Source of the DNA: Roseovarius sp. M141
Lineage (GTDB): Bacteria; Pseudomonadota; Alphaproteobacteria; Rhodobacterales; Rhodobacteraceae
Assembly (NCBI RefSeq): GCF_024355225.1
Contig: NZ_VCNH01000008.1
Coordinates: forward strand, 2,418,001 to 2,482,000
Length of the DNA: 64,000 bases
Reading direction: 5' to 3'
In this document: positions 25,908 to 62,995 of the stretch, piece after piece
How the letters are laid out: the number at the start of each line of letters is the position of its first letter
Numbering within the stretch: position 1 is the first letter of the stretch
Translations under genes and position numbers: made by a program
Notes under the pieces: generated by a model
What the model was told of the DNA's origin: nothing
What the model saw: only the letters and a program-made list of their open reading frames with translations
Databases searched by the model: none

Positions 25908-27710
25908 TTACTCCGGCACGGAGAAGACCGTCAGCTGCCCTCCGAGCGCGGTGTAATCGCTGAGCGAGGCATAGCCCCCCACCGCCCCCAGACCATCGGT
26001 CGGGTTGGTCAGACCTGCGGCAAGGCCGATACCGGCCCAGCCGCCCACGCCTGACAGGACGGCGACATACTGCCTGTCATCCACCGTGTAAGTCATGACG
26101 TTGCCGATGATGCCCGACGGAGTTTTGAACTTGTACAGTTCATCCCCGGTCTCGGCATCGACCGCTTTCAGATAGCCTTCGAGGGTGCCGTAGAAGACCA
26201 CGTTGCCCGCCGTTGCAAGCGCGCCGGACCAGACCGAGAATTTCTCGGGCAGCGACCACTTGATCTCGCCTTTCGTGGCGTCCCAGGCGATGAAGTTGCC
26301 CATGCCGCCATGGCTTTCCTTGGGCGGATACATCGACAGCGTTGCCCCGACATAAGGCTGCCCGGCGGTGTAGTTGACCCGGAACGGTTCGTAATCCATG
26401 CAGACATGGTTGGTCGGCACGTAGAACAGCCCGGTCTCGGGCGAGAATGCCGCCGGCTGCTGGTCCTTGGACCCCAGCGCCGCCGGACAGATCCCGGTCG
26501 TGTTCACGTCCTCGCCGTTCTGTTCGGTCGAGAATTCGGCCACGACCTGAGGACGACCGTGCTGGTCCGACTCCTTGTCCACCACCACTTCGGACGCCCA
26601 ATTGACGGCGGGATCGAACTTTTCCGCCACCAGCAACTCGCCCGTTTCACGGTCCAGCGTGTAGCCAAAGCCGTTGCGGTCGAAGTTAACCAACAGCTTG
26701 CGCATCTCACCGTCGATCTCCTGATCGACGAGGATGTTTTCGTTCACGCCGTCATAATCCCACTCATCATGCGGGGTCTTCTGATAGAACCATTTCGCCA
26801 TCCCGTCATCGGGATTGCGTGCCATGATGGTCATCGTCCACTTGTTGTCGCCGGGGCGCTGTGCAGGGTTCCAAGTCGAGGGGTTGGCGGTGCCGTAATA
26901 GACCAGATCCAGTTCGGGATCGTAGCTGTACCAGCCCCAGGTCGTGCCGCCGCCGATCTTCCACTGATCGCCCTCCCAGCTATCGAGCGAGGAATTCTCG
27001 CCGATCGGCTTGCCCAGATGCGTGGTGTTTTCCGGATCGATCAGCATGTCCTCGTCAGGGCCCAGCGAATAGGCGCGCCACGCCATCGTCCCGTCGGCGA
27101 TGTTGTACGCGGTCAGGTGCCCGCGCACGCCGAACTCACCGCCCGAAATGCCGACCAGCACCTTGTCCTTGACCGGCATCACCGTCGCGGTGTTGGTTTC
27201 GCCAATGGACGCGTCGCCGTTCTGCACGCTCCAGTCGACTTCTCCGGTCTCGGCGTTCAGCGCCACCAGTGTGGTATCAGCCTGATGCAGGAAGATCTTG
27301 CCGTCGGCATAGGCGACGCCGCGGTTGACCGTGTCACAGCACATTACCGGAATGACCGCAGGGTCCTGCTTGGGTTCGTATTTCCAGATAATCCGCCCGT
27401 CATCCTTGAGATCGAGCGCATAGACGATGTTTGGAAACGGCGTATGCACATACATCACGTCGCCAATCACCAGCGGCGCCCCTTCGTGCCCACGCAGAAC
27501 CCCGGTCGAGAACGTCCAGTCCACCTGAAGGTCGCCCACGTTGTCCTTGGTGATCTGATCCAGCACCGAATACCGATGATTCTGGTAATCTCCGGTCTGG
27601 ATGGCCCACTGGCCGGGATCATCGATCAGATTTTGCAATTCCTCGTTCGCGCTGGCCATCCCGGCCGAGCACAACGCGATTGCAGACGTCAAAGTCAGAA
27701 ACTTATGCAT
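25908..27710 (-). CDS. xoxF: Lanthanide-dependent methanol dehydrogenase XoxF
   Basis: A 600-residue PQQ-dependent methanol dehydrogenase of the XoxF type that oxidises methanol (probably also formaldehyde) in the periplasm. A signal peptide ends near residue 22. PQQ-site vicinal Cys124-Cys125 (VMCCDT) is present. Metal ligands Glu192 and Asn276 are in place, catalytic Asp318 lies in DEWDYDG, and the extra Asp320 two residues later is the residue that marks Ln(III)-dependent enzymes. GGAGG precedes the ATG. It heads xoxF-xoxG-xoxJ-CXXCW, with fghA 132 bases upstream. No mxaF is in the window. Confidence 0.97.
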
Positions 27711-42593: not shown

Positions 42594-42616
42594 AATAGGT
42601 ATCTTAAATACCGATT
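42594..42616. promoter_or_regulatory. NsrR-like dyad upstream of the heme-copper oxidase operon
   Basis: A 23-base imperfect dyad centred on 42605: GGTAT (42598-42602) and ATACC (42608-42612) with extra paired positions outside. Its core GTATCTTAAATAC is very close to the published NsrR (nitric-oxide-sensing Rrf2 regulator) box core of GTAT(T)TTAAATAC type. It lies 19 bases downstream of a TTGACA -35-like hexamer (42569-42574), placing it over the -10/+1 region, 24 bases before the subunit II ATG. This supports repression relieved by NO; assignment is by pattern. Confidence 0.5.
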
Positions 42617-42639: not shown

Positions 42640-43164
42640 ATGCAGATGACGGTTCTGGCCATCAGCCTCGTTGTGATGGCATTGATCAGCCTTGTCTTTA
42701 TCGGTGCGATCCGGTCAGGCGGCAGGGCACAGGCGCCGGGAAGTGTCGAACGTCGCCGCTTGGCGCTGATACTGGCGATGCTGGCGGTCGGCATCGTGGT
42801 TACGATCGCGTCCCTGCGGCCTTGGCCACAAGCCGTCGCAATGACAGCGGATACCCCCACCATCAATGTCACAGGCGGGCAATGGTACTGGGAAATCGAT
42901 AACACGGAACTGCCACAGGGTGTTCCGGTCATATTCAACGCGCACACAGAGGACGTGACCCATGGCTTTGGCGTGATGAACGACGTCGGCCGACTGTTGT
43001 TCCAGGTTCAGGTGATGCCGGGATATGTCAATCAGGTCCAGTATGTCTTTGACACACCGGGCGAGTACACGGTGGTTTGCCTCGAATACTGCGGCGTTGC
43101 CCATCACGCGATGATTACCGACTTTACAGTGGTGACAAACCAGGGGGGCGACGACAATGGCTGA
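42640..43164 (+). CDS. CuA-containing subunit II of a heme-copper oxidase-superfamily enzyme
   Basis: A 174-residue short subunit II. It has two N-terminal hydrophobic segments and a C-terminal cupredoxin domain with the binuclear CuA ligands His108, Cys147, Glu149, Cys151, His155 and Met158 (CLEYCGVAHHAM). The aromatic QWYWEID is also present. GAGGAG precedes the ATG. It overlaps subunit I by 8 bases. The length matches ba3-like or NO-reductase-type CuA subunits rather than A-family oxidases. Confidence 0.9.
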   Translation: MQMTVLAISLVVMALISLVFIGAIRSGGRAQAPGSVERRRLALILAMLAVGIVVTIASLRPWPQAVAMTADTPTINVTGGQWYWEIDNTELPQGVPVIFNAHTEDVTHGFGVMNDVGRLLFQVQVMPGYVNQVQYVFDTPGEYTVVCLEYCGVAHHAMITDFTVVTNQGGDDNG

Positions 43165-44596
43165 AGCAAGGTATGCGCCACAGACGGCGATGGTGAAGTT
43201 CACGATGATCCTGGTCGGTGTCGTGCTGATCCTGATGATGACCTTCGGGTTGATCATGCGGCTCAACCAATCCGGCATGATCGAAATCGACCCGATTCTG
43301 TTTTACGAAATTCTTACCGCCCATGGCGCCGGCATGGTTGGCACCGCCGGACTGACCGGCGCGGCGATCATGTGGTATTTCATGGGCCGCTACGTGCCGC
43401 TTGTCGGCGCTGTCTACGCAATCTTTCTGGGCCTTTTCCTGTTGGGCGTTGTGCTGATCCTTGGCGCCATTTTCGTGGGAGGTTACGCCGGCGCCTGGAC
43501 GTTTCTCTACCCTCTTCCCGCAATGTCTGGCGGCCTTTGGTCGGGCGGCGCCGCGGCGATTTTCCTGTTGGGGTACATTTCAATCGGCGTCGGCTTCTTG
43601 CTGATGCATCTTGAGGTCGGTCGCCAACTCATTCGCGCCTATGGCGGCGTCGGCGGGGCCTTGGCCTGGCCGTTGATTTTCGGCAAGGGCAAGCCCGAGG
43701 ATGCGCCGCCTGCGTCGGTGATCGCGGCCATGGCCTCGACCATATTCAACGTGCTCGGAATTGTCGTCGGCGCGGCAGTTCTGGTGGCGAGCATCGTCAA
43801 CCTGCTGGTGCCCGGGTTCGCCGTAAACGCGCTCTTGGCCAAGAACATGATCTATATCTTTGGCCATATCTTCATCAACGCCGCGATCTACATGGCGGTG
43901 ATCGCAGTTTACGAGATTGTGCCGGAATATACCGGCAAACCGTGGAGAGCATCGCGTGTCTTTGCAATTTCGTGGAGCGTCATCCTGCTCTTTGTCGTCA
44001 TCATCTATCCGCACCACCTGCTACAGGACGTCGCGATGCCAGCCTGGGCGCTGGTCATGGGGCAAATCATCTCATACCTGTCGGGTATCCCGCTTCTGGC
44101 GGTCACGGCCTTTTCATTGCTGGTCTATCTGCGCGCGGGGCCGGTCAAATGGGATCTGGCGTCAGCGCTTCTGGTTCTGGGCGTGGCCGGGTGGACCGTG
44201 GGGGTGGTTCCGGCGGTCCTTGACGGGATGATCATGGTCAACCGGGTGATGCACAATACCCAGTGGGTGCCGGGGCATTTTCATATCTACCTCCTGCTCG
44301 GCGTCGTCGCGATGGGCTTCGGGTTCATGGCCTGGCTGGTGCGAGACGCACGCACGGCAGGGTTTGGCACCCTTGATCGTCTGGGGGTCGGCGTTTTCCT
44401 GACAGGTGGCGCAGGGTTCACGCTGATGTTTCTGATCTCCGGTGCCATGTCGATCCCGCGCCGCTGGGCGGACCACGCGCCGGAATGGCAACCTCAGGCT
44501 GTCATCGCGTCGGGCTTCGCCGTTCTGACCATCCTCGGGGCGCTGTTGATCGTGGTGCTCTATTTGCGCGGATTGACGGCCCGCAAAAGGGCCTGA
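43157..44596 (+). CDS. Heme-copper oxidase-superfamily subunit I (B-family-like; possibly a CuA nitric oxide reductase)
   Basis: A 479-residue catalytic subunit with about 12 helices. Heme ligands: His56 (TAHGAGM) and His376 for the low-spin heme, His374 for the high-spin heme (VPGHFH). Active-site metal ligands: His237 in helix VI (FGHIFIN) and His286/His287 (YPHH). Oxygen-reducing A and B families have a cross-linked Tyr four residues after the helix-VI His; here that position is Asn241. A Tyr at 284 is the only nearby candidate. With the NsrR-like dyad upstream and denitrification genes in the window, NO reduction is a serious alternative to oxygen reduction. Confidence 0.85.
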   Translation: MAEARYAPQTAMVKFTMILVGVVLILMMTFGLIMRLNQSGMIEIDPILFYEILTAHGAGMVGTAGLTGAAIMWYFMGRYVPLVGAVYAIFLGLFLLGVVLILGAIFVGGYAGAWTFLYPLPAMSGGLWSGGAAAIFLLGYISIGVGFLLMHLEVGRQLIRAYGGVGGALAWPLIFGKGKPEDAPPASVIAAMASTIFNVLGIVVGAAVLVASIVNLLVPGFAVNALLAKNMIYIFGHIFINAAIYMAVIAVYEIVPEYTGKPWRASRVFAISWSVILLFVVIIYPHHLLQDVAMPAWALVMGQIISYLSGIPLLAVTAFSLLVYLRAGPVKWDLASALLVLGVAGWTVGVVPAVLDGMIMVNRVMHNTQWVPGHFHIYLLLGVVAMGFGFMAWLVRDARTAGFGTLDRLGVGVFLTGGAGFTLMFLISGAMSIPRRWADHAPEWQPQAVIASGFAVLTILGALLIVVLYLRGLTARKRA

Positions 44597-44597
44597 G

Positions 44598-45197
44598 ATG
44601 CGCGTTGCGCTGATCGCGTCGACGCTTGTCCTGGCGACGGGCGTCGGCGTTTTATGGCACGCGACCGACGAGGGACGCGCGCTAACCACCGAGACCGCGC
44701 GGCGGATCAACGTGGCCGAGACTTTGCCGCGCGTTCCCGACGCAGCCCTGGAAACCATGACCGGCGCGCATCTGCAGCTCCATCCGGGGCCGGGTCAGAT
44801 CACGGCGGTTGAATTCATCTACACCACATGCCCTACAATCTGCCAAAGCGCAGGCGCGGATTTTGCCCGCTTGCGGGACGCGGCGGCCGCCATTGCGCCA
44901 CAACTGCGGCTGATATCCCTGTCATTCGATCCCGAGACCGACGATCCCGAACACCTTGCGATCTACGGCAACTGGCACGGTGCGGATGGCGACATCTGGA
45001 CAGTGGCGCGCCCCTCGCGTGCGGACTTGCCCGGACTTCTGGACAGTTTCGGGGTTACCGTGATCCCCGATGGCTGGGGCGGCTATATCCACAATACGGC
45101 GATCCACCTTCTGGATGACCGGGGACGATTGGCGGCAATCGTCGACACTGACGATATTGACGGCGCGCTCGCTGCGGCCAGACAGATTTTGAGATGA
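44598..45197 (+). CDS. SCO1/SenC-family copper chaperone
   Basis: 199 residues, membrane-anchored by an N-terminal helix, with a thioredoxin fold. Copper-binding Cys78 and Cys82 (CPTIC) are present; a late His (165 or 170 in YIHNTAIHLLD) completes the site. It probably delivers copper to the CuA subunit of the preceding genes. It starts right after the subunit I stop and overlaps the next gene by 4 bases. Confidence 0.87.
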   Translation: MRVALIASTLVLATGVGVLWHATDEGRALTTETARRINVAETLPRVPDAALETMTGAHLQLHPGPGQITAVEFIYTTCPTICQSAGADFARLRDAAAAIAPQLRLISLSFDPETDDPEHLAIYGNWHGADGDIWTVARPSRADLPGLLDSFGVTVIPDGWGGYIHNTAIHLLDDRGRLAAIVDTDDIDGALAAARQILR

Positions 45198-45784
45198 GCC
45201 GCGCGGCGCAGATATTGACCGGGGCCGGTCTGCTTGCACTGGCGTTGCTGGCGCGCGGCTGGCTAGAAGCGACGCCGACACGTCACATGCTGGTGCAATA
45301 TCCGATGCTCATCGCGGCCGGGGCCCTGATTGCCGGGTCATTGGTGCAGTTCGGCGCGGGCGCATGGAATCGCGGCGGGGTGGCCAGTGTGCTGACCGCG
45401 ATCTTCGCCATGGCGTTCTGGATGCTGCCCCGCATGCTGGATGCTTCTGTCGCCGCACTGTCGGCGGACCTTCTCAAGGCGGCAAGTCTTGCTGCCCTGA
45501 TCGGTGGCGGCTTGCGTCTGGGCTGGCCGCGCGCGCACCCATTGCTTCGCGCGGTTCTCAAGGCACAGGCGATTTCGATGCTTGGTATTCTCGCCTTTCT
45601 ATACACGCATGCACCCGGGCGGCTGTGCAATGCCTATCTGCTGGACGACCAGCAGCGTCTGGGTGAGATGTTCCTGCTGGCAGCGATCGCGCTTGCCGCA
45701 TTATGGATCATCCCTCTGTTTGGTTTCTCCCACCCTGCCCCCAAACCGTCGGCCCAGGCATCAGGGCCGCCGAACCCGCATTGA
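45194..45784 (+). CDS. Membrane protein of unknown function in the oxidase operon
   Basis: 196 residues with about six hydrophobic segments and several His/Met residues within or near them (RHMLVQYPMLIAAG, FWMLPRMLDAS, FLYTHAPGRLCNAYLL). Overlap with the SCO gene shows co-translation. The His-bearing helices recall small heme or copper membrane proteins (CtaG-like or NnrS-like), but no firm match is seen. Its stop codon lies inside the 8-bp target duplication of the downstream IS element. Confidence 0.7.
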   Translation: MSRAAQILTGAGLLALALLARGWLEATPTRHMLVQYPMLIAAGALIAGSLVQFGAGAWNRGGVASVLTAIFAMAFWMLPRMLDASVAALSADLLKAASLAALIGGGLRLGWPRAHPLLRAVLKAQAISMLGILAFLYTHAPGRLCNAYLLDDQQRLGEMFLLAAIALAALWIIPLFGFSHPAPKPSAQASGPPNPH

Positions 45785-45788
45785 ATTT

Positions 45789-46939
45789 GGCTGTGTCTTG
45801 ATATCGTGTTGGTCGGCGTTCGTTTTGCCAGAAATGGCCAATATTCCACTCTGGTCGCAATAAACCGGAGGCCTCCGTGTCATTGAAGCAAGCCACGAAT
45901 ATCAGCCAGCACGCGTTCCGTCAGTTCCTCGATCGGATCATCCAGCTTACCCCGCGACAGATTGAGGATCTGCTTTCGCGGGCGCACGATGTCCGCCAGA
46001 GGCGGGCTGCATTGGCAGAAATAGAAACACGAACAGAACAAGAACGCAAGTGCCCACATTGCAACGAAGAGAGGCGCCAGAAATGGGGACAAACGCGAAC
46101 CGGTGTGCAGCGTTATCGCTGCGACTGCTGTCTGCGAACTTACTCTGGTCTCACCGGAACCGAGATTTGCGGACTGCACCGGCACGATCTTTTCTTGGAG
46201 GTTATCCGGAATATGCTGTCGGACACGCCTCTCTCGTGTCGCAAACTCGCCGCGCGTCTCGGACTTACAAAAGATACGATATGGCGGTGGCGGATGATTA
46301 TTCTGGAATCACTTGCAGAGGCTTGCGACAAGGATTTTAGCGGCGTTGTGGAGGTCGATGAGACCTATCAGCGAGAAAGCCGGAAAGGCTCTCGTGAGTG
46401 GGCAAATCACGCGGCTAACTCCAACCAGTATCCCGCTCCACCTCGGCCGCAGTGGTATGTTTATCGCAGCGGACGGATCAAGATGGCGCGCGGCCTCTCG
46501 CAGTGGCAGATCCCCTTGCTGACTGTGATGGATCGGGGCGGCAGGCGTCTCTTCGCACCGATCGCAAACCGCCGAAACCGGACAATCGAAATCGCCCTGG
46601 CACCGATCATTCCAGATGATGCGGTGCTATGTAGCGATGGCTTGAGACCATATCGCTCTTTCTGCAAAAAGCACAGCCTCACACACTACGAGGTCTCGAA
46701 CAAACTTGGGAAACGGGTTGTCGCCGGCGCGTTCCACATCCAGAACGTCAATGCGTTGCACGCGCGATACGATGCTTTCATTCGACCGTTCTGCGGACCA
46801 GCGACGAAATATCTCTACCGCTATCTGCGCTGGTTCCTCCTTCGCGCCAAAATCAAGCCCGAAGCCGCCTTTCAGAGCATCCTCGCAGCAACCTGATCAG
46901 GAGATCTGAACATTCCCAACACGATATAGCGACACATCC
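45789..46939 (+). mobile_element. Complete IS1595-family insertion sequence with terminal inverted repeats and 8-bp target duplication
   Basis: 1151 bp. The left end (45789-45812) and the complement of the right end (46916-46939) match at 20 of 24 positions, both reading GG(C/A)TGTGTC...ATATCGTGTTGG. Flanking direct repeats TTGAATTT (45781-45788 and 46940-46947) are identical, the 8-bp duplication usual for IS1595 elements. One intact transposase gene lies inside. The duplication contains the stop codon of the preceding gene, which is therefore undamaged. Confidence 0.93.
45877..46896 (+). CDS. IS1595-family transposase
   Basis: A 339-residue transposase with an N-terminal zinc ribbon (Cys59, Cys62, Cys82, Cys85), an HTH region (LAARLGLTKDTIWRWR) and an RNase-H-like ISXO2-type catalytic domain: Asp161 in VEVDETY, a second Asp in LCSDGLRPY and the late GAFHIQNVNALHARYDAFI block with the His/Asn residues typical of the family. 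Frame and length are intact, so the element may be active. Confidence 0.95.
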   Translation: MSLKQATNISQHAFRQFLDRIIQLTPRQIEDLLSRAHDVRQRRAALAEIETRTEQERKCPHCNEERRQKWGQTRTGVQRYRCDCCLRTYSGLTGTEICGLHRHDLFLEVIRNMLSDTPLSCRKLAARLGLTKDTIWRWRMIILESLAEACDKDFSGVVEVDETYQRESRKGSREWANHAANSNQYPAPPRPQWYVYRSGRIKMARGLSQWQIPLLTVMDRGGRRLFAPIANRRNRTIEIALAPIIPDDAVLCSDGLRPYRSFCKKHSLTHYEVSNKLGKRVVAGAFHIQNVNALHARYDAFIRPFCGPATKYLYRYLRWFLLRAKIKPEAAFQSILAAT

Positions 46940-50760: not shown

Positions 50761-51519
50761 TTACTCCGCAGGTTTGGCGGCGGCGCGGCGTGCGGACACG
50801 GACGCCTTGGGCGCGACCAGTGCCGTTCGGTGCGGCAAGGGGGTCTGGCGGCGCGAACGGACGACCTGATATCCGGGCCGCCAGAGGTATCGCACAGGGG
50901 CCGAGATCATGTGGACAAGGCGGCTGAAGGGAAACAGCACAAAGATCGTCAGGCCCAGCAGGATATGCAGTTGAAACAGCACCGGCGCCCCCTCGACATA
51001 GGACGCAGCGCGGCCATCAAGGGTAAAGATCGCCTGCGCCCACAGCATGAATTTCACCATCTCGCCGCCGTCGATATGTTGCAGCGAAACGATAATGGTC
51101 AGCAGCCCAAGGCACAGTTGCAGCAGCAAAAGGCCAAGGATCGCGATGTCCATGGTGCTGGATGTGGCGCGGATACGCGGATCGGTCAGGCGCCGGTGGA
51201 TCAGGATGATCCCGCCGACAAGCGCGGCAATTCCCGCCACGCCGCCGACGACAACGGCGAGGATCTGTTTCGCCTGATGGCTGATGCCCAGCCCCTCGAC
51301 CAGCCAGAGTGGCGTCAGCAGGCCAAAAAGGTGGCCGAAAAAGATCGTCAGAACTCCGACGTGGAACAGGACCGATCCCAGGATCAGCTGCTTGCGGCGC
51401 AAAAACTGGCTGGACGATGATTTCCATGTGAACGGATCGCGCTCGTAGCGGGCAATTGTGCCGATCAGCAGAACGGACAGGGCGATGTAGGGGTAGATCC
51501 CGAAAATGAAATTGTGCAT
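50761..51519 (-). CDS. narI: Respiratory nitrate reductase gamma subunit (cytochrome b) NarI
   Basis: A 252-residue membrane diheme cytochrome b that oxidises quinol and passes electrons to NarH. Five helices; His ligands are visible in LFHVGVLTIFFGHLFGL and LFQLHILLGLTIFVLFPFSRLVHMI. The C-terminal basic tail is cytosolic. It follows narJ by 11 bases. Confidence 0.96.
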   Translation of the reverse strand: MHNFIFGIYPYIALSVLLIGTIARYERDPFTWKSSSSQFLRRKQLILGSVLFHVGVLTIFFGHLFGLLTPLWLVEGLGISHQAKQILAVVVGGVAGIAALVGGIILIHRRLTDPRIRATSSTMDIAILGLLLLQLCLGLLTIIVSLQHIDGGEMVKFMLWAQAIFTLDGRAASYVEGAPVLFQLHILLGLTIFVLFPFSRLVHMISAPVRYLWRPGYQVVRSRRQTPLPHRTALVAPKASVSARRAAAKPAE

Positions 51520-51530
51520 CTGAGCCTCCT

Positions 51531-52256
51531 TTATTCCGCCGCGTGCCGGGGTTTCGGCGCGGGTGTCTTGGGGGTTTCCATATTGGACAGCATGTCGCGG
51601 ACCTGCGGGCAGCCGGCATTGGGGTCGGGGCCAAAAGTGACCTGAGCCTCGTCCCAGACCGCGTCGAGCGCGGCCAGATCGGTGGGGTCGTCGTCCTCCT
51701 GCCCCAGCAATGCGCTCACGGCCTCGGCGTCCGGCTGGGCGCGTGACAGTTGCCCCAAGGCGTCAAAGACCGGCGCATAGACACTCTCGCGGCGGCTCAG
51801 CCTTTCGGACAGCGCCGCAAAGATATGCGCCGCGTCTGCCAGCGTGTCTGCCGCCTCGGCGGCGGGGCGTGTCGCCAGAAACTCCAGCAATACCGGCAGG
51901 TGATCCGGCAGCTCGGACGTGGCCGGATCAAACCCGCCATCGCGGTAGGTTTCCACCAGCGACACCATAGCACCGCCCCTGTCGCGGCTTTCGCCGTGGA
52001 CATGCTCGAACAGGTTCAGCGACAAGGTGCGCGAGCGGTCGAACAGCATCACGAACCGTTCTTGCAGCTCGTAAATATCGCCGCCGCCAAGGGCCGTCAC
52101 CAAGGGCCGCAAGGCCCGCCGCACCGCAGCCGTCAGCCGCGTATCGGAGGCAAGCACGCCTCCGATTTCGGGCATGGCCGATTGAAGGGCCTCGGTCGGG
52201 TAGCTGAGGACCAGCGAAATCGCCTTGAGCGTACGGTCGTTCAGGACAAGTGTCAT
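51531..52256 (-). CDS. narJ: Nitrate reductase molybdenum cofactor assembly chaperone NarJ
   Basis: A 241-residue TorD/NarJ-family chaperone that binds NarG before Moco insertion. It has SLVLSYPTEALQSAMPEI near the start and LFEHVHGESRDRGGAMV, the family signature. The ATG at 52256 overlaps the narH stop by one base; the frame continues upstream to 52823 inside narH and that part is rejected. Confidence 0.95.
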   Translation of the reverse strand: MTLVLNDRTLKAISLVLSYPTEALQSAMPEIGGVLASDTRLTAAVRRALRPLVTALGGGDIYELQERFVMLFDRSRTLSLNLFEHVHGESRDRGGAMVSLVETYRDGGFDPATSELPDHLPVLLEFLATRPAAEAADTLADAAHIFAALSERLSRRESVYAPVFDALGQLSRAQPDAEAVSALLGQEDDDPTDLAALDAVWDEAQVTFGPDPNAGCPQVRDMLSNMETPKTPAPKPRHAAE

Positions 52257-53779
52257 CACATCGCCTCCGTCGGCATTATGAGCGGGCGCTTCTTGCCACC
52301 GAACAGCGATCCCTTGCTGATCCCCGGCGAGCATCCGTTCGTGTCGGTAAATCCACATTCGCCGCGCAGATCGTAGGCTTCTTCGACCTGCTCGCGGTGC
52401 GTCGTCGGGATGACAAAACGATCCTCGTAATCGGCCAGGGCCATGATCTTGTACATGTCCTCGATCACGCGCCCGGTCAGGCCGACACGGGTGGCGATGC
52501 CTTCGTCGATGACGCCGTCCACGGTTTTCGCGCGCATATAAGCGCGCATCGCCAGCATCCGCTCCAGCGCGGTCACGACCGGCGCCTCTTCGCCCGCTGT
52601 CAGCATGTTGGCCAGATACTTGACCGGGATCCGAAGCGAGCGGACGTCCGGCATGTCGCCGTCCACCCCGATCTTGCCCGCTGCGGCGGCGTTCTGAATG
52701 GGACTGAGCGGCGGGATATACCAGACCATCGGCAGGGTCCGGTATTCGGGGTGCAGCGGAAATGCGACCTTCCACTCCATCGCCATTTTCCAGATCGGGC
52801 TTTCCTGTGCGGCCTTGATCCAATCCTCGGGGATGCCGTCGGCGCGCGCCGTTTCGATCACCGCCGGATCGCGCGGATCCAGGAAGACGCCCAGCTGTGC
52901 ATCATACAGATCCGTCTCATCGGGCGCGTTCGCGGCCTCGGCGATCTTGTCGGCGTCATAGAGCATTACGCCGATATAGCGGATCCGCCCGACGCAGGTT
53001 TCCGAACAGACCGTCGGGTTACCGGATTCGATGCGGGGATAGCACAGCGTGCATTTCTCGGACTTGCCCGAGGACCAGTTGTAATAAACCTTCTTGTAAG
53101 GGCAGCCCGACACGCACATCCGCCAGCCCCGACATTTTTCCTGATCGATCAGGACGATGCCGTCCTCTTCGCGCTTGTAGATCGCGCCCGATGGGCAGGA
53201 CGCCGCGCAGGTCGGGTTCAGGCAGTGTTCGCACAGCCGAGGCAGATACATCATGAAGGTGTTTTCGTACTCGCCGTAGATCTCCTTCTGGATGCCTTCA
53301 AAGTTGTAATCCGCCGACCGCTTGGAGAATTCGCCGCCCAGGATTTCCTCCCAGTTCGGGCCTTTTTCGATCTTTTCCATTCGCTCGCCGGTAATGATGG
53401 AGCGCGGCCGCGCGGTGGGAAAGGCCTGCATTTCAGGGGCCGATTTCAGGTGGTCATAGTCAAAGGTGAACGGCTCGTAATAATCGTCGATCTCTGGCAG
53501 GTCCGGGTTGCCGAAGATATTCGACAGGATCCGCCATTTGCTGCCCTGCTTTGGCTGAAGCTTGCCGGATTTCGTCCGCGCCCAGCCGCCATTCCATTTC
53601 TTCTGGTTTTCCCAGTCGGTCGGATAGCCTGTGCCCGGCTTGGTTTCGACGTTGTTGAACCACGCGTATTCGACACCCTCGCGGCTGGTCCAGACGTTCT
53701 TGCAGGTGACGGAACAGGTGTGGCACCCGATACATTTGTCGAGGTTCAGAACCATCCCGATTTGTGCGCGAATTCTCAT
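52256..53779 (-). CDS. narH: Respiratory nitrate reductase beta subunit NarH
   Basis: 507 residues with four iron-sulfur clusters: Cys groups CIGCHTCSVTC, CEHCLNPTCAASC, CRGWRMCVSGC (Trp in place of a Cys, marking the 3Fe-4S cluster) and CTLCYPR...CSETC. It transfers electrons from NarI to NarG on the cytosolic face. It overlaps narG and narJ. Confidence 0.97.
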   Translation of the reverse strand: MRIRAQIGMVLNLDKCIGCHTCSVTCKNVWTSREGVEYAWFNNVETKPGTGYPTDWENQKKWNGGWARTKSGKLQPKQGSKWRILSNIFGNPDLPEIDDYYEPFTFDYDHLKSAPEMQAFPTARPRSIITGERMEKIEKGPNWEEILGGEFSKRSADYNFEGIQKEIYGEYENTFMMYLPRLCEHCLNPTCAASCPSGAIYKREEDGIVLIDQEKCRGWRMCVSGCPYKKVYYNWSSGKSEKCTLCYPRIESGNPTVCSETCVGRIRYIGVMLYDADKIAEAANAPDETDLYDAQLGVFLDPRDPAVIETARADGIPEDWIKAAQESPIWKMAMEWKVAFPLHPEYRTLPMVWYIPPLSPIQNAAAAGKIGVDGDMPDVRSLRIPVKYLANMLTAGEEAPVVTALERMLAMRAYMRAKTVDGVIDEGIATRVGLTGRVIEDMYKIMALADYEDRFVIPTTHREQVEEAYDLRGECGFTDTNGCSPGISKGSLFGGKKRPLIMPTEAM

Positions 53780-56700
53780 TCTGCGGCCTCCTTGTTGTCG
53801 GCGGGTTGATCGAGCCAGTCGACCTTGCGCATCTTTCTGACGATCACGAATTCATCGCGGTTCGATCCGACGGTGCCGTAATAGTTGAAGCCGTAGGACA
53901 GATGCGCGTAGCCGCCGATCATGTGGGTCGGTTTCAGCGTCGCGCGCGTTACCGAATTGTGGATGCCGCCCCGGTTGCCGGTGCGCTCCGATCCCGGTGT
54001 ATTCACGATCTTTTCCTGCGCGTGATACATGAACAGCGTGCCCTCCTTCATGCGCTGGCTGACCACTACGCGCGCGGTCAGCGCGCCGTTGGTGTTGTAG
54101 ACCTCGACCCAGTCGTTATCGACGAGACCCGCCTTTTTCGCATCCACTTCGGACATCCAGACCACCGGACCGCCGCGGTTCAGCGTCAGCATCAGCAGGT
54201 TGTCGCTATAGGTTGAATGGATGCCCCATTTCTGGTGGGGCGTGATGAAGTTGAGAACGACATGAGGCTGGTTGTCGCGGGCGTCATGGTTGACGTCCTT
54301 GGTGATCGTCTTCAGATCTACCGGCGGGCGATACTGGCAGAACCCTTCGCCAAAGGCGCGCATCCACAGATGGTCCTGATAGAGCTGCTGACGCCCGGTC
54401 AGCGTGCGCCACGGGATCAGTTCGTGCACGTTGGTATAGCCCGCGTTGTAGCACACCGTCTCGGACTCGATCCCCGACCAAGTGGGGGACGAGATGATCT
54501 TGCGGGGTTGGGCCGCGATATCGCGGAAGCGGATCTTTTCGTCTTCCTTGCTATGGGCCAGATGGGCGTGTTCGCGGCCGGTGGCGACGCTCAGCGCGTC
54601 CCATGCCTTGACCGCGACCTCGCCGTTGGTTTCGGGCGCCAGCATCAGGATGACTTCGGTTGCGTCGATATCGGTTTCGATCTTCGGGCAGCCCTTGGCC
54701 GGACCGTCCAGCCATTCGCCGTTCAGATCGCGCAGGTGCTGGACCTCGTGCTTGGTGTTCCAGCCGATGCCCTTGCCGCCATTGCCCAGCTTGTCCAAGA
54801 GCGGCCCCAGCGCGACGAACCGGTCATAAAGCGCGGTATAATCGCGCTCGACCGCCACATAGGCGGGCGCCGTCTTGCCGGGAATCAGATCGCATTCGCC
54901 CTTTTTCCAGTCCTTGACGTCTGGCTGGGCAAGCTCCCCGGCGGTGTCGTGCAGGATCGGCACGGCAACGATGTCCGTCTCCTTGCCCAGCACCTCGGGC
55001 GCGACCTCCTGAAACTTTTTGGCGATTGCCTTGAATATCTCCCAGTCGGATTTGCTTTCATAGGCGGGGTCGACGGCGGCCTGAAGCGGGTGGATGAAGG
55101 GGTGCATGTCCGAGGTGTTCAGGTCGTTCTTTTCGTACCAACTGGCCGTTGGCAGAACGATATCGGAATAGACGCATGTCGTGCTCATCCGGAAATCGAT
55201 GGTCACCAGCAGGTCCAGTTTCCCCTGCGGCGCCTTGTCGTGCCATGCGGCCTCCTTGGGCTTGGTGCGCCCCTCCTCACCCAGATCGTGACCCAGCACG
55301 CCGTGCTGCGTGCCCAGAAGATGCTTGAGGAAGTATTCGTGCCCCTTGCCGCTGGATCCCAGAAGGTTCGAGCGCCAGACAAACATGTTGCGCGGCCAGT
55401 TTTCAGGGGCGTCAGGATCTTCGCAGGACATCTGGATCGTCCCATCCTTCAGCCCGGCCGTCACGTAATCCTTCGGCTCGACCCCTGCCGCCTTGGCGGC
55501 CTTGGCCACCTCCAGCGGATTCTGCTTCAACTGCGGCGCCGAGGGCAGCCAACCCATGCGTTCGGCCCGGATGTTGTAGTCGATCAGCGAGATGTCCCAA
55601 TCGCCTGCGGGGGCCGTGGGCGACAGGATCTCTTCCGCTGTCAGCGTCTCGTAGCGCCACTGATCGGTATGGGCGTAAAAGGCGCTGGTACCGTTCATCT
55701 GCCGCGGCGGGCGGTTCCAGTCCAGCGCAAAGGCCAACGGCAGCCAGCCGGTCTGCGGGCGCAGTTTTTCCTGCCCGACATAATGGCTCCAGCCGCCGCC
55801 GGACTGGCCGACACAGCCGCACATCACCAGCATGTTGATGATGCCGCGATAGTTCATGTCCATGTGATACCAGTGGTTCAAACCGGCCCCCAGAATGACC
55901 ATGGACTTGCCTTGGGTCTTTTCGGCGTTGCGGGCAAATTCGCGCGCGACGGTGATGATCTTATCTGCGGCGACGCCGGTGATCTTTTCGGCCCAGGCGG
56001 GGGTGTAGGGTTTGTCCTCGGTAAAATCCTTGGACACCCAGTCGCCGCCAAGTCCCCGGTCAAGACCGTAATTGGCGCAGAACAGATCGAACACGGTCGC
56101 AACCATCGCGTCGCCATCACCCAGCGCGATGCGCTTGATGGGCACATTGCGCGTCAGCACGTCGGGATGCTCGCATTTGACGAAGTCCTGCGTCGCCGCA
56201 CCGCCGAAATACGGGAAATCTACGCCGACGACGTCGTCATGGTCCGACTCGAGGATCAGCGATAGCTTCAGCCGTGTCTCGGCGGCGCCTGCACGCTCCT
56301 CCAAGTTCCACGATCCCTTTTCGCCCCAGCGAAATCCGATCGTCCCGTTCGGCGCGACAACCGATTTTGACACCTCGTCAAAGGCCACCGTCTTCCAGTC
56401 GGGGTTATTCGACTCGCCCAGCTTGTCAGAGAACTCGTCCGCCCGCACGAACCGGCCCGGGATCAGCTTGCCGTCTTTTTCTTCCAGCCGCACCAGCATC
56501 GGCATGTCCGAATACTTGCGCGCGTAATCCTCAAAATACTCGGCCTGCCGGTCGAGGTGGAATTCACGCAAGATCACATGGCCCATCGCCATCGCCAACG
56601 CGGAATCCGTGCCCTGCTTGGGCGCCAGCCAGATGTCCCCGAATTTTGCCGCTTCGGAATAGTCGGGGCAGATCACCGCCGATTTTGTCCCCCGATAACG

Positions 56701-57513
56701 GGCCTCGGTGTAAAAATGCGCATCCGGTGTGCGCGTCTGCGGCACGTTCGACCCCCATAGCAGCAGGAAACCGGCGTTGTACCAGTCAGCCGATTCCGGC
56801 ACATCGGTCTGCTCGCCCCAGGTCTGGGGGCTGGCCGGCGGCAGGTCGCAGTACCAGTCGTAAAATGACAGGCAGGTGCCGCCCAGCAGGCTCAGATACC
56901 GCGATCCGGCTGCGTAGCTGACCATCGACATCGCCGGGATCGGCGAAAATCCGAACACCCGGTCCGGGCCGTATGTCCTGGCTGTGTAGGCGTTGGCGGT
57001 CGCGATGATCTCGGTCGCCTCATCCCATGTGGCGCGCACGAACCCGCCCTTGCCGCGGGTCTGAACGTAGGACGCCCGCAGGACCGGATCGTTTTGCAAT
57101 TTGGTCCAGGCCTCGATTGGCGTCATGGTCTTGCGCATCTCACGCCAGACCTTCATCAACCTGCCCCGGATCAGCGGGTTCTTCACCCGGTTGGCCGAAT
57201 AGAGATACCAACTGTAGGACGCCCCCCGCGCGCAGCCGCGCGGTTCGTGGTTGGGCAGATCGGCCCGCGTGCGCGGATAATCGGTCTGCTGCGTCTCCCA
57301 TGTGACGATCCCGGATTTGACGTAGATCTTCCACGAACACGACCCGGTGCAGTTCACCCCGTGGGTCGAGCGCACGATCTTGTCATGCCGCCAGCGGTTG
57401 CGATACGTCTCCTCCCAGTCGCGGTTTTCGCGCGTGACCTGGCCGTGGCCGTCCGAGAATTTCTCCAACTCTTTGGGCTGGAGGAAGTTCAGTCTGTCGA
57501 GCAGATGGCTCAT
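53776..57513 (-). CDS. narG: Respiratory nitrate reductase alpha subunit NarG
   Basis: A 1245-residue bis-MGD catalytic subunit reducing nitrate to nitrite in the cytosol. The N-terminal FS0 cluster motif with a His ligand is seen as His51, Cys55 and Cys59 (HGVNCTGSCS). The GYNP-type region reads GFSPIPAMSMVSYAAGSRY, and the C-terminal molydopterin dinucleotide domain ends in FNYYGTVGSNRDEFVIVRKM. It follows narK by 15 bases and overlaps narH by 4. Confidence 0.97.
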   Translation of the reverse strand: MSHLLDRLNFLQPKELEKFSDGHGQVTRENRDWEETYRNRWRHDKIVRSTHGVNCTGSCSWKIYVKSGIVTWETQQTDYPRTRADLPNHEPRGCARGASYSWYLYSANRVKNPLIRGRLMKVWREMRKTMTPIEAWTKLQNDPVLRASYVQTRGKGGFVRATWDEATEIIATANAYTARTYGPDRVFGFSPIPAMSMVSYAAGSRYLSLLGGTCLSFYDWYCDLPPASPQTWGEQTDVPESADWYNAGFLLLWGSNVPQTRTPDAHFYTEARYRGTKSAVICPDYSEAAKFGDIWLAPKQGTDSALAMAMGHVILREFHLDRQAEYFEDYARKYSDMPMLVRLEEKDGKLIPGRFVRADEFSDKLGESNNPDWKTVAFDEVSKSVVAPNGTIGFRWGEKGSWNLEERAGAAETRLKLSLILESDHDDVVGVDFPYFGGAATQDFVKCEHPDVLTRNVPIKRIALGDGDAMVATVFDLFCANYGLDRGLGGDWVSKDFTEDKPYTPAWAEKITGVAADKIITVAREFARNAEKTQGKSMVILGAGLNHWYHMDMNYRGIINMLVMCGCVGQSGGGWSHYVGQEKLRPQTGWLPLAFALDWNRPPRQMNGTSAFYAHTDQWRYETLTAEEILSPTAPAGDWDISLIDYNIRAERMGWLPSAPQLKQNPLEVAKAAKAAGVEPKDYVTAGLKDGTIQMSCEDPDAPENWPRNMFVWRSNLLGSSGKGHEYFLKHLLGTQHGVLGHDLGEEGRTKPKEAAWHDKAPQGKLDLLVTIDFRMSTTCVYSDIVLPTASWYEKNDLNTSDMHPFIHPLQAAVDPAYESKSDWEIFKAIAKKFQEVAPEVLGKETDIVAVPILHDTAGELAQPDVKDWKKGECDLIPGKTAPAYVAVERDYTALYDRFVALGPLLDKLGNGGKGIGWNTKHEVQHLRDLNGEWLDGPAKGCPKIETDIDATEVILMLAPETNGEVAVKAWDALSVATGREHAHLAHSKEDEKIRFRDIAAQPRKIISSPTWSGIESETVCYNAGYTNVHELIPWRTLTGRQQLYQDHLWMRAFGEGFCQYRPPVDLKTITKDVNHDARDNQPHVVLNFITPHQKWGIHSTYSDNLLMLTLNRGGPVVWMSEVDAKKAGLVDNDWVEVYNTNGALTARVVVSQRMKEGTLFMYHAQEKIVNTPGSERTGNRGGIHNSVTRATLKPTHMIGGYAHLSYGFNYYGTVGSNRDEFVIVRKMRKVDWLDQPADNKEAAE

Positions 57514-57528
57514 GACATGCGTCCTTTC

Positions 57529-60264
57529 TTATTGTGCTGGTTGGGTGGCCGCATTTGCGGATCTGCCACGTTCGATGTCGTGCAAAAGGCCGCCTGGCCT
57601 TGTGTAGAAGGCCCAGGTGATGACCACGCAGATCGCGTAGAACCCGAGGAACGCCCAGAGCGCCATCACCGGCCCGCCGGTCATCGCAATCGAGGTGCCG
57701 TAGGCCTTGGGGATGAAGAACGCCCCATAGGCTGCAATGGCCGAGGTAAAGGCGATGATCGCCGCGCTTTCGCGCCCTGCCTGTTTACGGCCTTCCGCAG
57801 CGTTGAGCTGGGGCATCAGGCGCGGGATCTCGCGGCCCATGATCGCGGGGATCATCTGGAACGTCGACGCGTTGCCGATCCCGGTCAGCAGGAACAGCGC
57901 CATGAAGCAGGCAAAGAACCCGACAAAGCTGCCCCCGGTCCCGCCGACCGGCAGGAACGCGATCACACCGAACACGGCGGCAATCATGCCCAGAAACGTC
58001 CAGAACGTGACCCGCCCGCCGCCGAAACGGTCGCTGATCCAGCCCGTACCGGCACGGCTGAGCGCACCGACCAGCGGCCCCAGAAACACGTATTGCAGCG
58101 CGTTGATTTCAGGAAACATCAGCCGGGTCAGCAACGGAAAGCCTGCCGAATACCCGATGAAACTGCCGAATGTGCCAGTGTAGAGGACGCACATCAGCCA
58201 GTTATGCTTGCGGGTGAAAATGATAGCCTGATCGCGGAAACTGGCCTTGGCATCGGCAATATCGTTCATCCCCAGCCAGGCAGCGACTGTTGCAATGATA
58301 ATGAACGGTACCCAGACAAAACCGGCATTCTGCATCCACAGCTGACCACCGTCCGACATCGTCTGCGGCTGACCGCCAAGCGCGCCGAACACGCCCGCCG
58401 TGATGACGATCGGCACCAGGAACTGCATGACCGACACGCCCAGATTGCCCAGCCCCGCGTTCAGGGCCAGCGCGTTGCCCTTTTCAGCTTTGGGATAGAA
58501 GAACGCGATATTGGCCATCGACGAGGCAAAGTTGCCGCCCCCGAGGCCGCACAAGAGCGCCAGTACGAGAAAGATCAGATAGGGTGTGCCCGGGTCCTGC
58601 ACAGCGTATCCAATGCCGATGGCAGGAAACAGCAGCGAAGCGGTCGACAGCGTGGTCCAAAGGCGCCCGCCGAAGATCGGCACCATGAAGCTGTAGAAGA
58701 TCCTCAGCGTGGCGCCGGACAGGCCCGGCAGCGCCGCCAGCCAGAACAACTGGCCCGAGCTGAAGCCGAACCCGATCGCCGGCAGGCGTGCAACCACGAC
58801 CGACCATACCATCCAGATCGAAAATGCCAGCAGCAGCGCGGGGATCGAAATCCACAGGTTGCGCCGCGCGATCGCCCTGCCCTTGTCGGCCCAGAATGCC
58901 GCATCTTCGGGTTTCCACTCTGTCAGGGTGCGCGGCACGACCGTGCGACCGGGGACGTGGATCGGCGCCATTTCGGGCAATTCCGGCAACGTATCCAGCG
59001 CCTGACCATGCGCGGCGCGTTCCATGGTGCGGATCGACATGTGCATCCACACCAGCGATACGGCGACAATGCCCAGCAGCAGCGCGAAGCAACTTGTATA
59101 AATGCCCGTCAGATCCAGAAGCGCGCCGAAGATGATCGGCAGAATGAACCCGCCAAGGCCCCCGATCATGCCCACCAATCCGCCCACCGCGCCGACATGC
59201 CGCGGATAGTAGACCGGGATATGCTTGAACACCGCCGCCTTGCCGAGGCTCATGAAGAAGCCCAGCACGAACAGGATCATCACAAAGGGCCACACATCCA
59301 ACTGCGTTGAAAACGCGATAGGTCCGTTCTTGCCCTGGATCACATAGTCGGTCGGCGGATAGGACAGCATCAGCAGCAGCACCATGCTGAAGCCAAAGCA
59401 CCAGTACATCACCGTCCGCGCACCGACGCGGTCCGACAATTGCCCGCCATAGGCCCGAAACACCGAGGCCGACAGCGAAAACGCCGCCGCCGACATGCCG
59501 GCCACGCGGATATCAAGCCCGTACACATCCACCAGATAGTGCGGCATCCACAGTGCCAGCGCGACGAAGGCCCCGAAGACAAAGAAGTAATACAGCGAAA
59601 AGCGCCAGACTTGCAGATTGGCCAGCGGCGCGAACTGTTCGGCCAAGCTGGGCGCGCGGGCCCCGCTCTTGCGGCGCGCGACCAGTGCCGGATCGTCCTT
59701 GGCGAACACGAAGAACGCAATCGCCAACGCCGCCAGCGCCCCCGCCCAGACATGGGCGACACCGTGCCAGCCATAGGCCACCATCACAAAGGGCGCGACA
59801 AATTTGGTGACCGCCGCGCCGACGTTGCCGGCCCCGAATATCCCCAGCGCGGTCCCCTGGCGCCCTGCATCGTACCAGCGCGACACATAGGCGACCCCGA
59901 TGATAAACGAGCCCCCCGCCAGACCGATCCCCAAGGCCGCGACCAGATACATCGTATAGGTCGTCGCAAAGGTCAGCATCCAGGTGGCCGCCGCCGTCAG
60001 CAGCATCTGCGCCGTAAATACCAGACGTCCGCCGTATTTCTCGGTCCAGACACCCAGAAACAGCCGCGTGACCGATCCGGTCAGGATAGGCGTGGCGACC
60101 AGCAGTCCAAACTGGAATTCGGTCAGCCCAAGCTCTGCCTTGATGGCGACGCCGATGATAGAAAAGATCGTCCAAACCGCAAAACATGCGGTAAAGGCGA
60201 TGGTGCTGAGCGCAAGCGCCCGGTTCTGATCAGAGCTGCGGACGCCCTCGATACTGTCCATCAT
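57529..60264 (-). CDS. narK: NarK1-NarK2 fusion nitrate/nitrite transporter
   Basis: 911 residues made of two complete MFS halves (about 1-430 and 460-900), each with about 12 helices and a nitrate-porter signature (GLAGGSFIIGVAYVSRWYD in the first; GLGGGNFASSMANIAFFYP in the second). In Paracoccus a fused NarK combines a proton-nitrate symporter and a nitrate/nitrite antiporter; the same is expected here. The ATG at 60264 follows AAGAGG; the frame runs on to 60498 but without similarity. It heads the narKGHJI operon. Confidence 0.93.
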   Translation of the reverse strand: MMDSIEGVRSSDQNRALALSTIAFTACFAVWTIFSIIGVAIKAELGLTEFQFGLLVATPILTGSVTRLFLGVWTEKYGGRLVFTAQMLLTAAATWMLTFATTYTMYLVAALGIGLAGGSFIIGVAYVSRWYDAGRQGTALGIFGAGNVGAAVTKFVAPFVMVAYGWHGVAHVWAGALAALAIAFFVFAKDDPALVARRKSGARAPSLAEQFAPLANLQVWRFSLYYFFVFGAFVALALWMPHYLVDVYGLDIRVAGMSAAAFSLSASVFRAYGGQLSDRVGARTVMYWCFGFSMVLLLMLSYPPTDYVIQGKNGPIAFSTQLDVWPFVMILFVLGFFMSLGKAAVFKHIPVYYPRHVGAVGGLVGMIGGLGGFILPIIFGALLDLTGIYTSCFALLLGIVAVSLVWMHMSIRTMERAAHGQALDTLPELPEMAPIHVPGRTVVPRTLTEWKPEDAAFWADKGRAIARRNLWISIPALLLAFSIWMVWSVVVARLPAIGFGFSSGQLFWLAALPGLSGATLRIFYSFMVPIFGGRLWTTLSTASLLFPAIGIGYAVQDPGTPYLIFLVLALLCGLGGGNFASSMANIAFFYPKAEKGNALALNAGLGNLGVSVMQFLVPIVITAGVFGALGGQPQTMSDGGQLWMQNAGFVWVPFIIIATVAAWLGMNDIADAKASFRDQAIIFTRKHNWLMCVLYTGTFGSFIGYSAGFPLLTRLMFPEINALQYVFLGPLVGALSRAGTGWISDRFGGGRVTFWTFLGMIAAVFGVIAFLPVGGTGGSFVGFFACFMALFLLTGIGNASTFQMIPAIMGREIPRLMPQLNAAEGRKQAGRESAAIIAFTSAIAAYGAFFIPKAYGTSIAMTGGPVMALWAFLGFYAICVVITWAFYTRPGGLLHDIERGRSANAATQPAQ

Positions 60265-60343
60265 TGAGCCTCTTTTAAAATGCGTGTCGTTTGATGCCAG
60301 GATTGGCTTGGGTGAAAACTGGAACTCAGATCCACCGGGGTGC

Positions 60344-60357
60344 TTGATCTGGATCAA
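60344..60357. promoter_or_regulatory. FNR/NarR-type box upstream of narK
   Basis: TTGAT-CTGG-ATCAA (60344-60357) is a perfect FNR-family site, centred 87 bases upstream of the narK ATG. A class II promoter would place the narK start site near 60309, leaving a leader of about 45 bases. This is the binding class expected for FNR, NNR or NarR proteins. Confidence 0.75.
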
Positions 60358-60480
60358 ATCCACAGGTCCAACCGTGTGAAACAAGTAACTGGGGGGAAAA
60401 TGCATGGCGCCGCGCCGGTGGATTTCCGCCCTCCAACTACCAGAACAATCCGGTCGCCTTGACAGAGGCCATTCCGGAAC

Positions 60481-60494
60481 TTGACAAATATCAA
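60481..60494. promoter_or_regulatory. Second FNR-like box, in the narR 5' region
   Basis: TTGAC-AAAT-ATCAA (60481-60494) matches the FNR consensus in 9 of 10 defined positions. It lies between the divergent narK and narR and includes a TTG that could otherwise be taken as the narR start. It may control narR or act from a distance on narK. Confidence 0.6.
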
Positions 60495-60516
60495 GCAATC
60501 ATCAGGATTAGGTCCG

Positions 60517-62533: not shown

Positions 62534-62995
62534 ATGAAGACCGCTTACGCCCGTATTCCACGCATGCTGCTTGTCCTGTGCCTTATCTGGTACGGCCCAT
62601 TTGCCATGGCTGGAACAGGCTATGCCAACGGCATGTTGACAATGGAGATTTGCGCCAACGGCGCGGTCGAAACAGTGCGTATCGACACCGGCGGCACCTC
62701 CGAAGAGCCGACAGATGACTGCTGCGTCTGCGTCGGCTGCTGCCACATTGCAGGCGACGAGCCGCGGGAACCGCGTGTGATGCGCGTCCTGCACACTCAT
62801 GAAATGCCGCTCAACTTTACCCTTAGCGGGACATCCCTCACCCGGATATCCATTATTCGCCCGTTGCCGCGTGCGCCCCCGCTGGCGCACATCGCGATAA
62901 TGACCACCCAAGATGTGATCGAGCCTGATCATTCCGACACCGGTCAAGTCATGCACTGCAACGGGCGACCTCTTTCAAAGGACGCCGACGCATGA
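62534..62995 (+). CDS. Cys-rich exported protein upstream of nosR (DUF2946-like)
   Basis: 153 residues with an N-terminal helix or signal peptide (LLVLCLIWYGPFAMAG), a short mature region with ICANGAVETVRID and a Cys/His cluster TDDCCVCVGCCHIAG, then a polar tail. The layout resembles DUF2946 proteins, some of which accompany copper-protein genes. The ATG at 62534 has AGGTGA upstream, and the stop overlaps the nosR ATG (ATGA). A role in copper supply to N2O reductase is plausible but not shown. Confidence 0.65.
   Translation: MKTAYARIPRMLLVLCLIWYGPFAMAGTGYANGMLTMEICANGAVETVRIDTGGTSEEPTDDCCVCVGCCHIAGDEPREPRVMRVLHTHEMPLNFTLSGTSLTRISIIRPLPRAPPLAHIAIMTTQDVIEPDHSDTGQVMHCNGRPLSKDADA

Follow-up and report, generated by a model that had tools for sequence, protein, structure and literature searches.

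An sNOR-type operon in Roseovarius sp. M141, a probable copper-type nitric oxide reductase beside cNOR

A 2024 PNAS paper reportedly names eNOR, sNOR, gNOR and nNOR. The published sNOR operon, norSY-senC-orf1, is NE0683-86 (PMC4940428), and Table A4 of PMC8756737 gives Silicibacter, by genus name only, among the sNOR genera, with residue N at the cross-link position of subunit I. N is listed there for CuANor as well, and the residue is not unique to sNOR. The purified CuA enzyme of Bacillus azotoformans was filed as qCuANOR, sNOR in PMC3475470, and the later PMC11388526 separates bNOR from sNOR. Both sides of the question whether sNOR acts on NO or O2 have been argued in print (PMC6967387, PMC3772326). 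Our literature search, which covered titles and the starts of abstracts among the matches listed and lay mostly outside subscription journals, returned no purified sNOR.

We analyzed a 64,000-nucleotide stretch of the Roseovarius sp. M141 genome (the window), in which an initial annotation had proposed a candidate CuA-type NO reductase. The proposal stood in so far as the enzyme belongs to a CuA- and Asn-bearing branch put forward as NO reductases; the family itself already has a name, sNOR. The cluster is a norS-norY-senC-orf1 operon of a described enzyme type, and its control site and the usual neighbors of its relatives bear on the dispute over the role of sNOR.

Operon, active site and family

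The operon begins with norS (42640..43164, + strand), encoding a CuA subunit II of 174 aa (COX2 31 bits, cut-off 22). Its CuA site is complete, as previously read, with the motif CLEYCGVAHHAM (pattern CxExCx3HxxM) at 43078-43113 on the + strand; the motif was present in 83/84 subunit II ORFs, the lone exception being a short ORF. The heme-copper subunit I gene norY (43157..44596, + strand; 479 aa; COX1 150.5 bits, cut-off 34.8) is intact and overlaps norS by 8 bases at its 5' end. It is followed by senC (44598..45197, + strand; SCO1-SenC 45 bits, cut-off 22.8), whose SCO1/SenC product is presumably the copper chaperone that loads the CuA of NorS, and by orf1 (45194..45784, + strand), which overlaps senC by 4 bases and encodes a small membrane protein of 196 aa with a relative in 76/80 related loci. 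Orf1 matched no family over its cut-off (DUF1404 19.5 bits vs cut-off 29.4), and an NCBIfam search with all four operon proteins yielded no model reaching its cut-off. Directly 3' of orf1, an IS1595-family transposase gene (45877..46896, + strand; NF033547 137.1 bits, cut-off 75) occupies the place where many relatives hold a formate/nitrite transporter gene; the element is no part of the enzyme. Scans for sigma-70 promoters and terminators gave hits at chance level only.

All metal-ligand histidines of NorY are present (H56, H237, H286, H287, H374 and H376) and aligned to H72, H233, H282, H283, H384 and H386 of the ba3 oxidase. N241 (codon at 43877-43879, + strand, position read from the ORF) aligned with the ba3 cross-link residue Y237, giving a helix-VI motif of HIFIN, not HxxxY. 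ORF reading and alignment thus agreed with the initial annotation on both the complete ligands and Asn241. Asn occupied this position in 240/240 proteins scored among the matches listed, 120 from a first protein search (the window's own included) and 120 from a second, and Asn241 is therefore no sequencing slip. These sets were the best 120 of ~2,000 and the best 120 of ~2,600 matches, by which the clade is uniform for Asn within those best-120 sets, short of proof for every match. The ba3 K-channel residues Y237, Y244 and S309 were replaced by Asn, Val and Val/Leu/Ile in 21/21 sNOR rows (Asn241, Val248 and Leu313 in NorY of the window), while T312 and Y248 were kept. Table A4 of PMC8756737 assigns sNOR 0 proton channels. 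By sequence, the nearest solved structures to NorY were ba3 oxidases, at a low score.

For the superfamily placement that had been suggested as a check, we built a maximum-likelihood tree from 41 proteins, in which NorY fell outside the Tyr-bearing B-family oxygen reductases. Twenty-one sNOR-like rows, including the window and Ruegeria pomeroyi, made up one side of a branch supported at 98/97, or at 100/100 once an Asn-bearing Thermomicrobium roseum protein joined them. The Tyr-bearing B-family rows (n = 9) formed their own group at 94/88, as did the Gln-bearing eNOR-like rows (n = 4) at 100/100. The tree joined the A family, not B, to the sNOR rows at 96/92, a join that carries a long-branch warning and was left unused; the published position of sNOR is near the B family, unlike in our tree.

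The protein of R. pomeroyi DSS-3 (formerly Silicibacter) was 62% identical to NorY over 98%, and lies on a megaplasmid with the four genes in the same order as in the window. Three protein searches returned no Nitrosomonas NorY by name among the matches listed. Asn at the cross-link position, the adjoining CuA subunit II, the operon order and the grouping with R. pomeroyi make the window enzyme almost certainly an sNOR. Its helix-VI motif and its place outside the Tyr-bearing group differ from those of B-family oxygen reductases, its Asn and separate grouping from the Gln of eNOR, and the lack of a Glu (HxxxE) together with a CuA protein as partner, not NorC, from cNOR. Public records label sNOR genes as cytochrome c or cbb3 oxidase, and KEGG files them as coxA according to PMC11388526, so a capacity to form N2O can go unnoticed in genome surveys.

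Control site, neighborhood and genome setting

An NsrR-type palindrome, AATAGGTATCTTAAATACCGATT, lies at 42594..42616 (+ strand), 23 bases before the norS start, with AGGTATCTTAAATACC at 42597-42612. Across the 4.5-Mb genome, the 16-base pattern AGGTATNNNNNATACC, derived from this site, matched exactly at the site itself and nowhere else, and its one-mismatch matches were at the level of a reversed control. Upstream of norS, a similar palindrome (fixed AT-N5-AT core, at least 7/9 outer pairs complementary) was found in 40/80 regions, against an expectation of 1.5 when two-letter blocks were shuffled; these regions include the window and plasmid loci and many near kin, and the region read falls too far upstream wherever the true norS start sits inside the called ORF. 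The NsrR-like site noted earlier ahead of the operon is thus recurrent among relatives. An earlier palindrome search with other settings returned only an unrelated partial palindrome. Some relatives' sites nearly equal the published NsrR consensus gATGyAT-N5-ATrCATc (PMC1274295), and in the window site and several from the Roseobacter group, GG stands where the consensus has TG.

The genome encodes a three-Cys Rrf2 protein, for which NsrR was the top-scoring NCBIfam model, below its cut-off (115.9 vs 182). Its gene lies within ~10 kb of nirK and norB, in a region that also has genes read as nnrS, pseudoazurin, a CRP/FNR regulator, norC, norQ and norD, and the best copy of the site upstream of it had two mismatches, which is no better than chance. 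Judged from these sequences, the operon is likely controlled by this NsrR-like protein. For Nitrosococcus oceani, the locus numbers in PMC3772326 put NsrR (Noc2967) close to sNOR (Noc2969-2971).

We sampled the neighborhood in 80 named loci, the best 80 of 280 from one scan. The four genes were in order in 72/80 loci under a strict position filter and in 4 more by table reading; L067, L072, L074 and L078 fail the strict filter solely through over-long called ORF starts. A contig edge cuts the operon in L041, senC and orf1 are absent from the ORF list in L044, the norS ORF is short and orf1 absent in L052, and orf1 is absent in L073. Among the 71 loci with >1.7 kb before norY, 45 had an Rrf2-family gene no more than 4.5 kb away. 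A formate/nitrite transporter was near the operon in 41 of the 74 loci with >2.1 kb after it. Neither adjoins the operon at the window locus, and a genome-wide search found no formate/nitrite transporter. The recurrent palindrome and the Rrf2 and nitrite-transporter neighbors provide a separate line of evidence in favor of a nitrogen-oxide role. A cbb3 subunit gene was near 21/80 related operons, which fits low-oxygen use, and a truncated-hemoglobin relative occurred in 13/80 loci.

Several other loci had neighborhoods of their own. On a Thermomicrobium roseum plasmid (L088, 3339-6261), a deep-branching Asn-bearing pair is followed by a formate/nitrite transporter, extending the transporter link outside Proteobacteria. 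A Burkholderiaceae contig (L077, 1-1837) has an eNOR-like subunit pair a few kb from its sNOR operon on the opposite strand, which places two candidate NO reductases of CuA type next to each other; a second Burkholderiales contig (L073) resembles it. Within the Gln-bearing eNOR-like group, plasmid-encoded proteins of Thermus thermophilus (L097, 5821-7503; L098, 5821-7506) read GHFK vs GHFH/AHFH in the other aligned CuA-type rows, a Lys replacing the low-spin heme His, and are followed by Rrf2 and DUF542 genes.

Six COX1-family proteins of the Roseovarius genome were typed by motif and reading as aa3, quinol oxidase, two cbb3, the cNOR subunit NorB and NorY. The initial annotation reported no cNOR in the window, which holds, but the genome elsewhere encodes NorB (L005, L114; motif HLWVEGTWE), together with genes read as norC, norQ and norD; sNOR would therefore be a second NO reductase and not a stand-in for a missing one. 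There were two NirK matches, the main nirK at C8:1086381 and a second on a smaller contig (C1:217925-218821; 320 bits, over cut-off). The nitrate and nitrous oxide reductase genes described earlier were recovered by reading, with narI, narJ, narH, narG and narK at 50761-60498 of the window (- strand) and the nos genes across the window end, from the start of a gene read as nosR (62992-64000) to nosZ-like and further nos-like genes beyond it. With NirK, cNOR, nar and nos together, the strain is by appearance a complete denitrifier in which sNOR is an extra. A search for NirS gave no convincing match in the genome. Within the window, one ORF of 328 aa matched cytochrome d1 (22.2 bits, or 27.5 with in-frame neighbors, just over the cut-off of 25.5), but the match covers only positions 9-95 of 368 and was, by judgement, not accepted as NirS. 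Elsewhere in the window, an ORF at 25908-27710, flanked by ABC-transporter and other genes, reads as a 600-aa secreted quinoprotein resembling lanthanide-type methanol dehydrogenase (XoxF).

sNOR was found in 4/196 genomes of the order (E 1e-60) and in 0/8 other genomes of the genus within that sample, a rare and patchy occurrence that suggests horizontal gain. cNOR was present in 4/4 of these sNOR genomes vs 63/196 overall (p about 0.01 by hand arithmetic, kinship uncorrected), and a NorB match in 19/26 named sNOR genomes, the 26 of the 80 loci that are isolates or complete genomes; sNOR is thus seldom the sole NO reductase. For Bacillota, PMC11388526 likewise gives sNOR as rarely occurring without another NOR (2/433). 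A link between sNOR and nirK was unconvincing, with nirK over cut-off in 2/4 sNOR genomes vs 28/196 overall, and in 9/26 named genomes. The draft genome of Bradyrhizobium sp. AUGA SZCCT0176 contained sNOR and two NirK matches, with no NorB match at 1e-12 and no cNOR or qNOR found. Three of its four COX1-family proteins were read as aa3, cbb3 and sNOR. A COX1 score of 453.6 bits was the sole ground for judging that the fourth (L136) is not a NOR. This strain offers a background where loss of sNOR would show directly.

Nitric oxide or oxygen as substrate

As a whole, the locus is best explained as a copper-type NO reductase under NsrR-type control beside cNOR, to which we give a probability of roughly 0.7. 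Electrons from a donor in the periplasm would enter NorS at CuA and move on to NorY, whose low-spin heme would feed the heme-CuB site, where two NO are most likely reduced to N2O. Asn241 replaces the cross-linked Tyr that O2 splitting requires. With that replacement and two further ba3 K-channel positions turned hydrophobic, the enzyme probably takes up its protons on the periplasmic side, and there is probably no pumping. An NsrR-type repressor probably occupies the palindrome ahead of norS and is released when NO appears, which would make sNOR an NO sink based on copper, alongside cNOR with its FeB.

Residues and regulation together favor NO reduction, and NO is the probable main substrate of the window sNOR. 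Counted against the explanation as a whole are the unclear nirK link in sNOR genomes, the absence of Rrf2 and transporter neighbors at the window locus, and an NsrR-like protein that scores below the NsrR cut-off and has its own upstream site at chance level. The N. europaea transcript data and the cbb3 genes near related operons, taken up below, count against it too. In the literature, sNOR is treated as an NO reductase in Nitrosococcus (PMC3772326), and the evidence for NO reduction by sNOR in Nitrococcus, as cited in PMC6967387, is indirect alone.

A tentative alternative, which overlaps the NO reductase reading, is an NO scavenger that works mainly under microoxic conditions on NO and O2 at modest rates and serves detoxification, not denitrification. 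The frequent company of cNOR in the order sample, in the named genomes and in the Bacillota counts of PMC11388526 would suit such a role, as would the NsrR-type palindrome and the truncated-hemoglobin relatives. The co-occurrence counts behind it ignore kinship, however.

Rather unlikely is a function of sNOR as a high-affinity oxygen reductase at low O2 with NO present, in which Asn241 would only slow or alter the chemistry. PMC6967387 favors this function for the N. europaea enzyme, with sNOR transcripts up 2.7- to 10.8-fold under O2 limitation, and the nearby cbb3 genes, the copper, not FeB, site expected by homology and the ba3 oxidases as nearest solved structures all agree with it. The position without Tyr in every scored protein argues the other way, as do the lost K-channel positions, the separation of the sNOR rows from the Tyr-bearing group, and the palindrome and Rrf2 neighbors of relatives.

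The initial annotation had also raised Tyr284 (codon at 44006-44008, + strand, position read from the ORF), which aligned with the ba3 residue two before the His pair, as a possible substitute in the manner of cbb3. On that reading, the cross-link would move to helix VII and oxygen chemistry would be kept. Tyr was present there in 120/120 nearest proteins among the matches listed, the window's own included (first search). In the second search, 78/120 proteins among the matches listed had Phe, as did 6/6 Aromatoleum and Noviherbaspirillum loci with an unchanged operon. In the two cbb3 proteins of the genome (IYIWAGPHH, FYIWVGSHH), the Tyr that we take to be the cbb3 cross-link residue stands six, not two, before the His pair. 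With Phe so common at 284, Tyr284 is unlikely as an obligatory cross-link, and a relocated one is highly improbable, which weakens this objection to the NO reductase reading.

For the family at large, the chances are about even that sNOR is a true NsrR-controlled copper NO reductase module, patchy in Proteobacteria, often accompanied by a nitrite channel and an NsrR-like gene of its own, and the sole NOR in some members, such as Bradyrhizobium sp. AUGA SZCCT0176.

Comparison with described systems

The ba3 oxygen reductase of Thermus thermophilus, whose sequence is the closest to NorY among solved structures (E 5.9e-13), has the same His ligands, but Tyr237, Tyr244 and Ser309 where the window has Asn241, Val248 and Leu313. 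eNOR is likewise a CuA-type branch without the Tyr, but it has Gln at that position and its four rows stand apart at 100/100.

As described in PMC3475470, the type II cluster of B. azotoformans, cbaB2-cbaA2-senC2-cbaC2, has the same four-gene order as the window; compared by size and order alone, its genes of 519, 1482, 606 and 582 nt correspond to 525, 1440, 600 and 591 in the window, and its proposed electron donors include menaquinol. The bNOR/CuANOR of B. azotoformans shares the Asn position, CuA, SenC and likeness to ba3 (PMC3475470, PMC8756737), but its subunit I is longer (1707 nt); it enters this comparison by description, and our tree was built from other proteins.

The closest match is sNOR itself (NorSY of Nitrosomonas; Silicibacter). 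Whereas many sNOR relatives have Rrf2 and formate/nitrite transporter neighbors, and the window, without both, has an IS1595 element following instead, it shares with sNOR the operon order, the Asn, the CuA subunit II and SenC.
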